The position numbers were made by a program, and so were the translations under genes. A stretch of DNA of 33,150 nt from Candidatus Bathyarchaeota archaeon. Its GTDB lineage: Archaea > Thermoproteota > Bathyarchaeia > Bathyarchaeales > SOJC01. Below the pieces are notes generated by a model that saw only the letters and a program-made list of their open reading frames with translations, made no database searches and was not told the DNA's origin. Positions 301-4,838 of this stretch are shown piece by piece (the stretch's first letter is position 1; the number at the start of each line of letters is the position of its first letter). The stretch is from contig CP070683.1 of assembly GCA_020352645.1 (NCBI GenBank), forward strand, positions 960,803-993,952. Reading direction: 5' to 3'.

Positions 301-510
301 CTATTGATCTGTATATTTGCGCCATTTCTCAACTTCTTTTTGAATTTCAGCAAGCCGTTCTGGATGTGCGATAAGAGCATTAATCACTTTTAGCTGCTCA
401 TCATGCTCAACGTCTAGTCTTGTAGCCATTTCATATTTGAAGAATGCTCCATAGATTTTTAAATCTGTCAGATAAGCTTCCATGTCTGGAGAAATCTTTT
501 TTCCTACCAT
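301..510 (-). CDS. Small hypothetical protein, 69 aa
   Basis: I do not recognise this protein. It is charged, mostly helical in composition, without cysteines, signal peptide or membrane segment; the C-terminal half (AHPERLAEIQKEVEKWRKY) looks like an amphipathic helix. Its ATG overlaps the last codons of the upstream recombinase-like gene by seven bases, so the pair may be translationally coupled. Small charged proteins in this setting are common in archaeal plasmids and viruses, but that is context only. It could also be non-coding. Confidence 0.45.
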   Translation of the reverse strand: MVGKKISPDMEAYLTDLKIYGAFFKYEMATRLDVEHDEQLKVINALIAHPERLAEIQKEVEKWRKYTDQ

Positions 511-746
511 TTTCTTGATTGCACAGTCAGTCTTTCGTAGGTCTTTCTCTTAACCCTGTCAGCTGTCAATTGCTGTTCTCTTTCCTTAAGCATCTCATCA
601 CATGTCTTTCCAGTGAATTCTTTGAACTGTTTCATCGAAATTCTGTACATTCTTTGTGTGTTTTCACTCTGGCTAATTGTCAGTAGCCACTCTCTCAGCG
701 CATTGTCTGCGATGTCTTTGATTGGCTTCATTTTCTTCGTGTTCAT
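504..746 (-). CDS. Recombinase SAM-like (core-binding) domain protein, truncated or stand-alone
   Basis: This 80-residue protein resembles the N-terminal SAM-like DNA-binding domain of tyrosine recombinases. It has a segment of the type LREWLLTISQSENTQRMYR followed by MKQFKEFTGKTCDEML, the helix pattern that clasps DNA in XerC/D-type integrases. The catalytic domain with its Arg-His-Arg-Tyr residues is absent: the frame ends at 504 and the following gene does not encode it. It is therefore either an integrase fragment or a genuine small DNA-binding protein. A GGAGATGA sequence lies about 10 bases before the ATG. The seven-base overlap with the next gene argues for two functional small genes rather than random decay. 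Family call is moderate. Confidence 0.55.
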   Translation of the reverse strand: MNTKKMKPIKDIADNALREWLLTISQSENTQRMYRISMKQFKEFTGKTCDEMLKEREQQLTADRVKRKTYERLTVQSRKW

Positions 747-815: not shown

Positions 816-856
816 ATCTCTCTTTCACTATTGAATAATCTTCAAGAAAGGTGAAT

Positions 857-2197
857 ATGATGTCTGATTATCCCAAGATTGTTATCACCCCACCTGGACC
901 GAAGGCTAAAGAGCTGGCGAAACGTGACGAAAGAGTGATCTCACAATCGTTTGTGCGGTTCTATCCCTTAGCAATACAAAGTGGAAAAGGCTGCATAATT
1001 CGTGACGTAGACGGAAACGAGTACATAGATTTCAACTCTGGCCTAGTTTGCCTGAACGTGGGGCACAGCCATCCTAAAGTTGTTGCAGCAATCAGAAGCC
1101 AGCTAGACCGCTTTCTGCATTACTCGGTAACAGATTTCTTGTATCGTGAAGTTGTCGACGTAGCTGAGAAGTTAGTTAGAATCACTCCTGGAAAAGGGGC
1201 GAAAAAAGTCTTCTTCGGCAACAGCGGCGCTGAGGCGGTTGAGGCAGGAGCAAAGATGGCGAGGTGGCACACACGGAAGCCGAGGTATATTGCGTTCGTA
1301 GGTGCCTTCCATGGAAGAACCTTCGGTGGGATGTCTTTTACAGCCAGCAAACCAGTTCAAAGAAGACACTTCTTTCCTCTCGTTTCCGGCGTAACTCATG
1401 TGCCCTACGGTTACTGTTATCGTTGCCCCTTCAAACTTTCATTCCCCGATTGCAACTATTGGTGTGTAGACTTTATAGACGAGCATGTATTGAAAAAATA
1501 CGCACCGCCTGAAGAGGTTGCTGCTTTTGTCTTTGAGCCGATTCAAGGTGAAGGAGGTTATGTTGCTCCTCCACCTGAGTACTTTAAAAAGCTCAAGAAG
1601 CTTGCTGACAAATACGGCATTTTGATGATGGATGACGAAGTGCAAGCTGGAATGGGAAGAACTGGTAAATGGTTTGCAATTGAACATTGGGGTGTGGAAC
1701 CAGACATAGTCTGCATCGCGAAATCAATAGCGGGAGGAATGCCTCTTGGCGCTGCTGTGGCAAGAGCTTCGATAATGGATTGGGAAGGTGGCTCTCATGC
1801 GAGTACATTCGGCGGCAATCCAGTTTCCTGTGCGGCTGCTTCAGCAGTCATTGATACAATTGAGGGAAACAGATTGATGGAAAACGCAGCAAAACAGGGT
1901 TCACACATAATGAGGAGACTCGGAGAGCTTAAGGAAGAATGTGAGATAGTAGGTGACGTTAGAGGAAAAGGGCTGATGATTGGCATGGAATTGGTGGAAG
2001 ACAAAGTGAGTAAGAAACCTGCCGCAAAGAAAGCCGGAGAGATTATGAAGAGAAGCTGGCAGCGAGGAGTCGCTGTGATAACTTGTGGGAAATCAACAAT
2101 TCGAATAGCTCCCCCCCTCATCATAACTAGAGAGCTTGTGGACGCCGCATTGGAAATAATAGAGGACGTAACTAGACAGGCTGAGAAACAAGCTTAA
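857..2197 (+). CDS. Class III PLP-dependent aminotransferase (GABA/ornithine type or related racemase)
   Basis: A complete fold-type I PLP enzyme of 446 residues. Visible family marks are NSGAEA (phosphate-binding loop, about 122-127), GAFHGRT, DDEVQAGMGRTG (with the Asp that contacts the PLP ring nitrogen), CIAKSIAGGMPLG with Schiff-base Lys near 289, and STFGGNP. A cysteine-rich insert near residues 187-203 (C-x2-C-x8-C-x3-C) is shared, as I recall, with archaeal enzymes of the Pyrococcus ornithine aminotransferase / broad amino-acid racemase group. Members transfer amino groups from omega-amino acids to 2-oxoglutarate or racemise amino acids; sequence alone does not decide which. The frame opens at a GTG at 851, but AAAGGTG at 847-853 fits ATG 857 or 860. 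It is probably monocistronic, as structured DNA follows. Confidence 0.88.
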   Translation: MMSDYPKIVITPPGPKAKELAKRDERVISQSFVRFYPLAIQSGKGCIIRDVDGNEYIDFNSGLVCLNVGHSHPKVVAAIRSQLDRFLHYSVTDFLYREVVDVAEKLVRITPGKGAKKVFFGNSGAEAVEAGAKMARWHTRKPRYIAFVGAFHGRTFGGMSFTASKPVQRRHFFPLVSGVTHVPYGYCYRCPFKLSFPDCNYWCVDFIDEHVLKKYAPPEEVAAFVFEPIQGEGGYVAPPPEYFKKLKKLADKYGILMMDDEVQAGMGRTGKWFAIEHWGVEPDIVCIAKSIAGGMPLGAAVARASIMDWEGGSHASTFGGNPVSCAAASAVIDTIEGNRLMENAAKQGSHIMRRLGELKEECEIVGDVRGKGLMIGMELVEDKVSKKPAAKKAGEIMKRSWQRGVAVITCGKSTIRIAPPLIITRELVDAALEIIEDVTRQAEKQA

Positions 2198-2311: not shown

Positions 2312-2440
2312 ATGGAAGGTGAAGTCAAAGGTGATCCAGAACGCAATGAAGGGAGTATGACATGGGCGCTGAAGGAGTCAGGCAGCTCAGTCTCGCAGAG
2401 ACGACTAAGCAATCTTCACTATCTTTGGTCTCCAATCTAG
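2312..2440 (+). other. Possible 42-aa upstream ORF overlapping the transporter start
   Basis: An ATG at 2312 sits five to six bases after GAGGTG (2301-2306), a better Shine-Dalgarno context than the transporter's own. It opens a 42-codon frame ending with TAG at 2438-2440, out of frame with and overlapping the first 79 bases of the transporter. The peptide (MEGEVKGDPERNEGSM...) matches nothing I know. It may be a leader peptide controlling the transporter, or the true N-terminus separated by a frameshift. It could also be chance. Confidence 0.3.
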
Positions 2441-3561
2441 GTGCTATTCTTGCGGGTTTATTAGTAGCTTCTTCCCTAGGTTTGTTTCTGCAGAAACCAT
2501 GGATTGTCGCGCTCTATCCTGGGATTCTTAGTATGCGAGGAGTCATAGGCGGACTTTTCTCCGGTCGCTTGAGTACAGGCCTGCATTTGGGCACAGTCGA
2601 GCCAAGAATCCTTGGGAGAAAGACGGAAACATTCCACACATTATTGAATTCCACTGTTGTATTGACCTTCGGGAGCAGCATGCTTCTAGGATCTTTCGCA
2701 TTCGTTTTCGGAACCTTTTTTTGGGGAATGACCCCTCTTGACATGATTACGATTCTCGGCATTCTAGTTTCTACAATGGGCTTGTCAATACTGGCAGTCT
2801 CTCCAATAACTATCGTTGTCGCTTTTTCGTCTGCCAAGAAAGGTTTGGATCCGGACATTATTGTCTATCCGATAACAGCAACTATGGCTGACATTTTGGT
2901 GACCATATGCTATGTTCTTGTTCTGAGCCTTACATTCAGTATGGGTGAAATAGGTCAACTTATCGTATGGAGCATCTGTCTGATGTTCGCTTTCATTGCT
3001 GCAAACGCAGCTTTTGGGAATAGAAAGGAAGGGGAGTTTGTAAGAACAATCCAAGAGGCCCTCTTAACTATGATTGCAGTAGCTTTGATAGTAAACGTTA
3101 CAGGCTCCATACTAACGAATATTGGCCTTAAACCCGCCATTTTCCTTGTATACCCTGCGCTTCTCGACGTAATTGGAGGTTTTGGGGCAATAATCGGCTC
3201 TACAGCCACTACAAAACTTGCTTTGGGAACAATTGATTCTTCCTTCACATCAATAAGAAGTCACAGAAATCAGATTGCAGGGGCTTGGACCGCGGCTGTG
3301 ATCATGTATTTGATACTCGCACTTGTCTCCTCCTTCTATCAACATCTTTCCGACTTGGTCTTAATGTCACATTATATCATAGTGTTTTGCGTAACGAATA
3401 TTGTTGCAGCAGCATTCATGATTTGCATCTCCTTCAGCGTAGCTATTCTGACTTTTCAGAGAGGCCTTGATCCAGACAATTTTGTGATTCCAATAGAAAG
3501 CTCATTGGCTGACACCGTGACAACGGTCGCATTGCTTCTGGCTTTGGAGTGTATTGCATGA
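2362..3561 (+). CDS. MgtE/SLC41-like divalent cation transporter (membrane domains only)
   Basis: A 399-residue membrane protein with about ten hydrophobic segments and an internal duplication. Each half carries an MgtE-type signature: ALYPGILSMRGVIGGLFSGR with a following LHLGTVEP, and LVYPALLDVIGGFGAIIGST with a following LALGTID. SLC41/MgtE proteins pass Mg2+ (and sometimes other divalent cations) across the cytoplasmic membrane. The soluble N-terminal and CBS domains of bacterial MgtE are absent; as in SLC41, two membrane repeats form one chain. Two downstream soluble PhoU/TrkA_C proteins probably replace those regulatory domains. The ATG at 2362 follows GAAGGGA at a suitable distance, and an in-frame stop at 2347 excludes much extension. 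The ion selectivity is inferred from family. Confidence 0.85.
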   Translation: MGAEGVRQLSLAETTKQSSLSLVSNLGAILAGLLVASSLGLFLQKPWIVALYPGILSMRGVIGGLFSGRLSTGLHLGTVEPRILGRKTETFHTLLNSTVVLTFGSSMLLGSFAFVFGTFFWGMTPLDMITILGILVSTMGLSILAVSPITIVVAFSSAKKGLDPDIIVYPITATMADILVTICYVLVLSLTFSMGEIGQLIVWSICLMFAFIAANAAFGNRKEGEFVRTIQEALLTMIAVALIVNVTGSILTNIGLKPAIFLVYPALLDVIGGFGAIIGSTATTKLALGTIDSSFTSIRSHRNQIAGAWTAAVIMYLILALVSSFYQHLSDLVLMSHYIIVFCVTNIVAAAFMICISFSVAILTFQRGLDPDNFVIPIESSLADTVTTVALLLALECIA

Positions 3562-3649
3562 ATTCATAAGACAGTAAGTATTATCTAGCTCCATGGATTG
3601 TATGTTAACTACATCATGAGTCATCCAAAACCGGAGTGTTCCTTATTGG

Positions 3650-4258
3650 ATGGTGAAGTTGGAGAAGGTTGAATATAGACCAATATCGGTTAGAGATTTG
3701 TTGGTTGAAATCAAAGATTTGTCTGAGTTGATGATTGATCTGGCATATTCAGCAGCACTCTTCAACAGTAAAGAATTAGCGGAGGAAGTATTGGCACTTG
3801 AGAACCACGTGGACACACTTGCATATCTTCTGCACATGAATGTCATGATAGCTGTCCGAGACGCTGAAGATGCTGAGCATCTGGTGGCTGTCTCAACAGT
3901 TGCCTCAGCCGCCGACAAGATCTCAAATGCAGCCGCCGACATTGCCACAATAGTAATCCAAAACATAGGTATCCACCCTATTGTGAGGCAGGTCTTTGAA
4001 AAAGTTGAGGAGCGTTTGATTAGGGTGAAAGTGAGACCTAACTCAATTCTAGCTGAAGCTTCGATTGGCGAACTGGAGTTGGCGGCTAAGATTGGTGTTA
4101 ATGTGATCGCAATAAGGCGAAACGGAAAATGGATTATTGGTCCAAAAGGAAATGAAAGGCTTGAAAGAGATGATGTTCTGTTAGCGAGGGGAGCACCACA
4201 TGGTATCGACGAGCTTAGAGCAGCAGCTGAAGGTTCGCTAAGGAACTTGGAGGACTAA
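3650..4258 (+). CDS. PhoU-like plus TrkA_C (RCK_C) domain regulator, copy 1
   Basis: A soluble protein of 202 residues. Residues of about 10-115 form PhoU-like helices (with SELMIDLAYSAALFNSKELA), and about 120-196 form a TrkA_C/RCK_C domain (RVKVRPNSILAEASIGELEL, then DDVLLARG). TrkA_C domains bind small ligands, in some proteins cyclic dinucleotides, and gate ion transporters. PhoU-type helices commonly bind metal clusters or partner transporters. The gene follows the MgtE-like gene by 88 bases and precedes its paralogue by one base, so the three look like a transport unit. The ATG at 3650 has no strong Shine-Dalgarno sequence. The domain call is firm; the ligand is unknown. Confidence 0.83.
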   Translation: MVKLEKVEYRPISVRDLLVEIKDLSELMIDLAYSAALFNSKELAEEVLALENHVDTLAYLLHMNVMIAVRDAEDAEHLVAVSTVASAADKISNAAADIATIVIQNIGIHPIVRQVFEKVEERLIRVKVRPNSILAEASIGELELAAKIGVNVIAIRRNGKWIIGPKGNERLERDDVLLARGAPHGIDELRAAAEGSLRNLED

Positions 4259-4259
4259 T

Positions 4260-4838
4260 ATGAGCGAAAAAGACCAGCAGTTTAGAACGATAGTTGATAG
4301 ATTGGTTTATCTAAAAGACACGTCTGAGTTGATGATTGATCTGGCCTACTCTTCAGTTTTGCTAAACAGCCGATACCTGGCTGAAGAAGTACAAGCCCTT
4401 GAAGAAAGCATGGATCAGCTCCACACAGAGTTTGAACAGCTTGTCATGTCAAGCGGGTTCAAGCCGCAAGATTCAAAGGATTTCCTAGGATTGATAAGGC
4501 TGGGAGTCGCCACTGAGCAATTGGCGGACGCAGGAGCCGAGATCGCACAAGTGGTTCTTAGGGAGCTGGAACCACACCCTATTCTTAAGCTAGCGATAGA
4601 AGAAGCGGAAGAGACAGTCGTGCGTGTTCAAGTATCTCCCAAATCCCAACTCGTAGGGAAAACGCTTCGCAAGGCTCAAATTCATGAAGACACAGGGATG
4701 TGGATCTTGGCTATCAGAAGGGGCAACACTTGGATTCGCCCAAGGCCTAATACAACAATCCTGCCAAATGACGTTTTGCTAGCCTCGGGATATTCAGAAG
4801 GGGAAGAAGACTTGGAAAACCTTGCTTCAAATGAATGA
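4260..4838 (+). CDS. PhoU-like plus TrkA_C (RCK_C) domain regulator, copy 2
   Basis: A 192-residue paralogue of the preceding protein with the same order: PhoU-like helices (about 10-108, with SELMIDLAYSSVLLNSRYLA) and a TrkA_C domain (about 115-188, with VQVSPKSQLVGKTLRKAQI and NDVLLASG). It starts one base after the stop of copy 1 and is surely co-transcribed. The two proteins are clearly diverged outside the conserved helix, so a heteromeric regulator is plausible. Together they may form the cytoplasmic gate or ligand sensor for the MgtE-like channel. Function is inferred from domain content and neighbours. Confidence 0.83.
   Translation: MSEKDQQFRTIVDRLVYLKDTSELMIDLAYSSVLLNSRYLAEEVQALEESMDQLHTEFEQLVMSSGFKPQDSKDFLGLIRLGVATEQLADAGAEIAQVVLRELEPHPILKLAIEEAEETVVRVQVSPKSQLVGKTLRKAQIHEDTGMWILAIRRGNTWIRPRPNTTILPNDVLLASGYSEGEEDLENLASNE

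Follow-up and report, generated by a model that had tools for sequence, protein, structure and literature searches.

Organization of the locus

The DNA analysed here (hereafter the window) is a stretch of 33,150 nucleotides, positions 960,803-993,952 in the genome of a Candidatus Bathyarchaeota archaeon, a 1.68-Mb assembly in a single contig. It carries three plus-strand genes in a row, which encode a predicted divalent cation transporter of the MgtE/SLC41 type (MgtE) and two proteins, PT1 and PT2, each joining a PhoU domain to a TrkA_C domain (also called RCK_C). Their coordinates are collected in Table 1; 88 bases separate MgtE from PT1, and a single base separates PT1 from PT2. A preliminary description of this DNA had recognized an MgtE-like membrane protein without the N and CBS domains, followed by two soluble PhoU-TrkA_C paralogues. 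All of this was confirmed by the open reading frames, by Pfam, which finds neither MgtE_N nor CBS in the first protein and both PhoU and TrkA_C in PT1 as well as in PT2, and by homologous loci in dozens of genomes. The host genome holds no other MgtE and no other TrkA_C protein. Based on the distribution described below, it is very probable that MgtE, PT1 and PT2 are partners.

MgtE and the PT proteins occur together across archaea

We surveyed 200 genomes sampled evenly from Thermoproteota, 119 Asgard-side genomes (the phylum of a Jordarchaeia metagenome-assembled genome) and 61 relatives of the host. In Thermoproteota, 66 genomes have MgtE and 69 have PT; both are present in 65, MgtE only in 1, PT only in 4 and neither in 130 (1.6e-46 in a Fisher test, which ignores shared ancestry). 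The Asgard-side genomes give the same picture, with MgtE in 76 and PT in 73 (both 71, MgtE only 5, PT only 2, neither 41; 7e-24, with the same limit). Both are found in 48/61 relatives, where the few exceptions are mostly due to fragments or incomplete assemblies (a truncated MgtE in G007, a weak match in G027, and completeness of 81% in G029 and 83% in G054). Among the four PT-only Thermoproteota, Pfam detects a diverged MgtE in G160, G219 is 75% complete and G199 shows a weak fragment. The fourth is G142 (90% complete, 7% contamination), in which PT1-PT2 is present and MgtE was not found, and which is the sole PT genome with a diadenylate cyclase.

The association also holds at close range. 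Within one genus (g25), G040 and G055 have both components and G031, G034, G043 and G052 have neither, which indicates joint gain or loss. Decay is shared as well: MgtE and PT are both broken in G061 (L110), a 36-residue MgtE remnant with a stop adjoins a broken PT in G012 (L103), and a second PT pair adjoins an MgtE remnant in G003 (L111). Joint decay that leaves remnants side by side is as expected of a functional unit. Among the 200 Thermoproteota, CorA is rarer where the MgtE-PT system is present (11/65) than where it is missing (72/135; Fisher 5e-7, phylogeny uncorrected); because of this lack of correction we do not use the anti-association as proof, and take it as suggestive of a shared role in Mg2+ transport.

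Linkage and duplication history

MgtE and PT lie at most 3 kb apart in 51/65 genomes, on the same strand in 35 and on opposite strands in 16, and these opposite-strand layouts argue that the linkage is more than one inherited operon layout. The gene architecture varies: MgtE occurs with separate PT1 and PT2 or with a fused PT1-PT2, and split MgtE halves occur with a fused PT or with separate PTs. At every locus with an uncut assembly the composition is nevertheless 2+2, that is, two PT units and two MgtE halves, and two PT units are present in 64/65 genomes. On a plasmid of Halobaculum roseum, a fused PT1-PT2 precedes two half genes for MgtE that carry the annotation 'magnesium transporter', which extends the system to Euryarchaeota. 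In the plasmid search, PT relatives were found in one record only; the MgtE query gave none at E 1e-5, although Pfam clearly recognizes the Halobaculum halves.

A tree built from the PT units of 72 loci, 144 in all, splits the 5' from the 3' units at one bipartition (support 0.97, 1/144 misplaced). The tree of MgtE halves also separates the two halves, with 4/144 misplaced, all of them second halves of split loci. These separations indicate an old duplication behind the PT1/PT2 pair and another behind the two MgtE repeats, with 2+2 as the rule.

Two further observations concern gene architecture. MgtE halves are separate genes in several archaeal lineages (L046:7023-8433; L100:2026-3143; L109:2421-3588), and where MgtE is split, its second halves fall outside the group formed by the C-terminal repeats of fused MgtE. 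A 703-residue candidate for a Rosetta-stone fusion (L099:1728-3836, minus strand) was rejected, being in reality PT1-PT2 with a tail and with MgtE as the next gene; the tail of this Asgard-side fusion has about 290 residues, is rich in Ala, Glu and Lys, helical and probably coiled.

The transporter is a double-repeat MgtE

Pfam family PF01769 matches the transporter in two stretches (89.3 bits against a cut-off of 27.6; whole-protein E 3e-25), and NCBIfam has no model covering this double-repeat type. An AlphaFold2 model based on an alignment of 51 homologues (predicted local distance difference test, pLDDT, 93.2; predicted template-modelling score, pTM, 0.91) shows 11 helices, and the N-terminus of the protein is the first transmembrane (TM) helix. 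As the repeats are joined by one helix, an odd number, they would face the same way in the membrane, like the two subunits of the bacterial MgtE homodimer. We take this layout of 5+1+5 TM helices to fit the 11-TM model of SLC41.

Each repeat carries an acidic pore residue within a conserved motif (Asp177 and Asp384, Table 1). In a profile alignment to 8h5e/4u9l, Asp177 aligns with the Asp in TM5 of Thermus thermophilus MgtE, which by a count of the tagged chain we take to be Asp432, presumably the selectivity residue. Of the Px6GN motif, the Px6G part is kept in both repeats (P53/G60 and P265/G272), and the Asn is replaced by Val and Gly. One half of the model matches T. thermophilus MgtE 2zy9 (Foldseek probability 1.00, 4.5 Å, with a weak E of 0.21), and no full-length double-repeat relative was found among the chains of the PDB. 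The top Foldseek rows were MATE transporters, which we dismissed as meaningless (root-mean-square deviation 12-17 Å). We also rejected an N-terminal extra domain suggested by some homologues (frames up to 476 residues), as it lies in a start-less open frame. Two MgtE repeats without CBS define the SLC41 type, a definition that fits the window protein (PMC9276622), and the absence of N and CBS domains is not special to this locus, since it is usual in archaeal and metazoan MgtE/SLC41 (PMC9276622).

PT1 and PT2 resemble two halves of a PhoU protein

The PhoU family PF01895 is matched at 29.2 bits in PT1 and 29.0 bits in PT2 (cut-off 23.5), and TrkA_C PF02080 lies above its gathering cut-off in both; Pfam finds no TrkA_N/RCK_N domain in either. 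PT1 aligns over its whole length (residues 2-199, E 5e-49) with PH0236 of Pyrococcus horikoshii (1vct, 2bkn, 2bko and 2bkp), which likewise joins PhoU and TrkA_C end to end, and a PT2-family profile matches PH0236 at E 1e-54. These structures are titled as of unknown function or as putative K+ channel related, and their records name no function.

The conserved acidic residues of the PhoU halves (Table 1), to which the invariant D30 of PT1 (32/32 homologues) is added, include motifs that fall on the acidic E(D)xxxD motifs of the PhoU structures 1t72 and 1sum in our alignment. In PhoU proteins these motifs form a metal site, and their conservation here suggests that the PhoU halves of PT1 and PT2 bind metal. 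E. coli PhoU holds Mn2+, and its conformation shifts with Mn2+ or Mg2+, at least as Gardner 2014 is cited in PMC12301784. PhoU proteins consist of two three-helix bundles (PMC12301784). In the model of a natural PT1-PT2 fusion (L058; pLDDT 89.4, pTM 0.88), each half fits PH0236, one of them at 1.5 Å, and both halves together cover whole PhoU chains (template-modelling score 0.66-0.70 on target length). This model would fit an arrangement in which PT1 and PT2 pair as the halves of a single PhoU protein do.

Table 1. Features of the MgtE-PT1-PT2 locus and of its upstream flank (nucleotide positions in the window; residue numbers within each protein)
Feature	Position	Strand	Residues	Description
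ORF resembling a tyrosine recombinase	504-746	-	80 aa	resembles the N-terminal core-binding part
Class III aminotransferase	851-2197		 	PRK05769-type
MgtE	2362-3561	+	399 aa	predicted MgtE/SLC41-type divalent cation transporter; two 5-TM repeats and one linker TM; without N domain, CBS and plug helix
MgtE repeat 1, TM helices			11-37, 46-76, 89-121, 125-159, 164-193	AlphaFold2
MgtE linker helix			196-219	AlphaFold2
MgtE repeat 2, TM helices			224-254, 258-288, 295-327, 332-366, 371-398	AlphaFold2
Pore acidic residue, repeat 1	2890-2892	+	Asp177	D in 47/51 homologues; motif P164-D165-x4-P170-x6-D177
Equivalent acidic residue, repeat 2	3511-3513	+	Asp384	D in 49/51 homologues; motif P371-D372-x4-P377-x6-D384
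PT1	3650-4258	+	202 aa	PhoU and TrkA_C/RCK_C
PT1 PhoU domain	3704-3955	+		Pfam
PT1 PhoU-type acidic motif	3800-3814	+	E51xxxD55	E51 29/32, D55 32/32 homologues
PT1 acidic residue	3938-3940	+	D97	31/32 homologues
PT1 TrkA_C/RCK_C domain	4016-4222	+		Pfam
PT2	4260-4838	+	192 aa	PhoU and TrkA_C/RCK_C
PT2 PhoU domain	4311-4553	+		Pfam
PT2 PhoU-type acidic motif	4401-4415	+	E48xxxD52	28/28 homologues
PT2 PhoU-type acidic motif	4515-4529	+	E86xxxD90	28/28 homologues
PT2 TrkA_C/RCK_C domain	4617-4823	+		Pfam

Genomic surroundings

The flanks are those of an ordinary archaeal chromosome. A class III aminotransferase gene lies directly upstream of MgtE, and a gene for a TFS-like zinc ribbon protein lies downstream of the three genes, followed by genes for an endonuclease-dU family protein, a Csl4-like exosome protein, a methyltransferase, a Dph2-type protein and others. 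The aminotransferase is next to MgtE at loci L002-L004, L009-L011 and L033 as well; this adjacency is confined to the same family and one sister family and is not seen elsewhere, and it is probably a lineage-local linkage. The 80-residue open reading frame further upstream, which resembles part of a tyrosine recombinase, has no match in Pfam or PHROGs. An M-box magnesium riboswitch or any other riboswitch was ruled out, as no Rfam family was found anywhere in the window.

Discussion

Based on these results, we propose that the three genes specify an archaeal system for Mg2+ transport that is regulated in trans. MgtE would be a pseudo-dimeric pore whose two 5-TM repeats share a chain, or are encoded by separate half genes in some archaea, and each repeat has the pore Asp of bacterial MgtE. 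PT1-PT2 would be an ancient obligate hetero-pair of PhoU+RCK_C proteins, providing one sensor unit per pore half and replacing in trans the two N+CBS sensors beneath the bacterial MgtE dimer. The E(D)xxxD motifs of the PhoU three-helix bundles could serve as binding sites for Mg2+ or a different divalent ion, the RCK_C domains would pair PT1 with PT2, and a metal-driven movement of the pair would close or open the cytoplasmic mouth of MgtE, with feedback on intracellular Mg2+ as the outcome. That MgtE and PT form a physical regulatory complex appears likely to us, and for a divalent ion as the PT ligand we see the chances as even. Taken as a whole, the reading in which PT1-PT2 acts in trans, sensing Mg2+ or another divalent ion and gating an SLC41-type MgtE that lacks CBS, is the one we favour, with moderate confidence.

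There are clear parallels with known systems, and clear differences. Bacterial MgtE (T. thermophilus, 2zy9/2yvx) has the same 5-TM fold and the same P(D/A)x4Px6D motif with its pore Asp; its pore likewise combines two 5-TM halves with two cytosolic sensor units, the sensor role being a proposal in our case. In the bacterial protein, the two N+CBS sensors lock the pore at high Mg2+ (PMC8104411). The key distinction is that bacterial MgtE is a homodimer with N domain, CBS and plug helix in cis, whereas at this locus a single chain holds both halves, and PhoU+RCK_C proteins with genes of their own are the proposed sensors. Eukaryotic SLC41A1-A3 also have two MgtE repeats per chain and no N/CBS domains, and we know of no PhoU/RCK_C partner for them. 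SLC41A1 differs in having been reported as a Na+/Mg2+ exchanger, so the window MgtE could be either a channel or an exchanger (PMC8104411, PMC9276622). In TrkH-TrkA, KtrB-KtrA and MthK, the pore is controlled by a soluble subunit that contains RCK_C and is encoded separately, as we propose here; unlike in those systems, our pore is an MgtE and not a Trk/K+ channel, the PhoU bundle replaces RCK_N, and the PT proteins would form a hetero-pair instead of the octameric ring of RCK-gated K+ systems. PhoU itself (E. coli, T. maritima 1sum, A. aeolicus 1t72) shares the three-helix bundle, the E(D)xxxD motifs and the two bundles per unit (here PT1 plus PT2), and is a regulator of a membrane transporter, as proposed for PT. 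In contrast to PhoU, each PT bundle bears an RCK_C domain, and the partner is a cation transporter where that of PhoU is Pst/PhoR. We found no description of an MgtE-PhoU/TrkA_C pairing in the open-licence full-text literature, and genome browsers may display the adjacency uncommented. We regard the system as Mg2+ transport of the MgtE/SLC41 kind to which a new, proposed regulatory module is joined, and not as a novel type of protein.

The preliminary description had pictured a three-part ion transport system with an external, possibly nucleotide-controlled gate, and had called for a survey of conserved adjacency, with a lack of co-occurrence in other archaea as grounds for refutation. No such lack was observed, and near-perfect co-occurrence and kept linkage support a partnership in trans; the nucleotide control is not supported. 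The TrkA_C domains match by sequence the RCK_C domain of Staphylococcus aureus KtrA crystallised with c-di-AMP (4xtt), and they might gate MgtE on binding this or a different cyclic dinucleotide, in the way known for c-di-AMP with KtrA/KtrC. The KtrA residues contacting c-di-AMP are Arg169, Asn175 and Asp167 (PMC5508000). When aligned with 4xtt, however, the equivalent of Arg169 is never Arg in PT1 (0/32) or PT2 (0/28), and hence absent from all 60 PT sequences, and the position of Asn175 is occupied mostly by Asp in PT1 and by Trp/Arg in PT2. Diadenylate cyclase (PF02457) is likewise absent from the 61 relatives and from all 65 genomes with both MgtE and PT, and was detected in 4/200 Thermoproteota, in a search whose controls were positive in 11/14 genomes, including M. 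jannaschii and H. volcanii. Furthermore, the absence of RCK_N removes the usual ATP/ADP/NAD site of KtrA/TrkA. With no cyclase, no Arg169 and no RCK_N, nucleotide gating of the Trk/Ktr type is unlikely, and a cyclic-dinucleotide gate in particular is very improbable.

It could also be that PT1-PT2 regulates MgtE in response to a signal other than a divalent ion, such as phosphate, Mg-ATP, K+ or H+, through RCK_C or PhoU. RCK_C domains have varied ligands (PMC11078986, on KtrAB), PhoU signals phosphate status with Pst/PhoR, and the gating of bacterial MgtE is modulated by ATP (PMC9276622); but without RCK_N there is no classical nucleotide site, and the invariant residues of the PhoU halves are acidic motifs of the metal type, so we regard such a signal as unlikely. 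If PT1-PT2 were assembly or stability subunits of MgtE without sensing, the same obligate pairing and 2+2 composition would be expected. Nevertheless, PhoU and RCK_C both serve regulation in other proteins (PhoU, TrkA/KtrA/MthK), and the conservation of the acidic motifs exceeds what a scaffold would seem to require, which makes a purely structural role distinctly unlikely. Finally, the PhoU name and the title of 1vct ('putative potassium channel related protein') would suit a regulator of a distant K+ or phosphate transporter, linked to MgtE by chance or by a shared operon. We find this extremely improbable, as PT tracks MgtE across two archaeal phyla even when unlinked or inverted, the host has no TrkA_C protein besides PT1 and PT2, and the PT-only genomes G142 and G219 show no K+/phosphate transporter among the neighbours scanned.

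Several points weigh against the reading of PT1-PT2 as a divalent-ion sensor that gates MgtE in trans. In the remaining 14/65 genomes, MgtE and PT are far apart on one contig (6) or on different contigs (8), and the co-occurrence statistics carry the disregard of shared ancestry mentioned above. No MgtE-PT gene fusion is present among the loci examined, and the physical contact between MgtE and PT is put forward as a presumption. Mg2+ is the presumed cargo of the window MgtE by family membership, and the acidic motifs of the PT PhoU domains could be structural, or serve for iron or manganese. In addition, a CorA gene is present in the host genome as well as in 11/65 genomes with the system, so MgtE-PT is not the sole Mg2+ route.

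In conclusion, our results suggest that Mg2+ entry in archaea is controlled by a separate two-protein sensor, rather than by the built-in sensor of bacterial MgtE. A broader claim, which we hold only tentatively and with some doubt, is that an obligate PhoU-RCK_C heterodimer senses intracellular Mg2+ in trans and regulates the CBS-less, SLC41-type MgtE of archaea, and that the double-repeat MgtE shared with metazoan SLC41 was ancestrally multi-subunit and externally gated. The locus and its relatives represent a concrete candidate for a conserved two-protein sensor acting in trans, and the putative sensor pair is found in nearly every Thermoproteota genome and most Asgard-side genomes that carry the transporter. 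They also suggest a possible function for the PH0236 family, for which a crystal structure has been available since 2005 without an assigned role.

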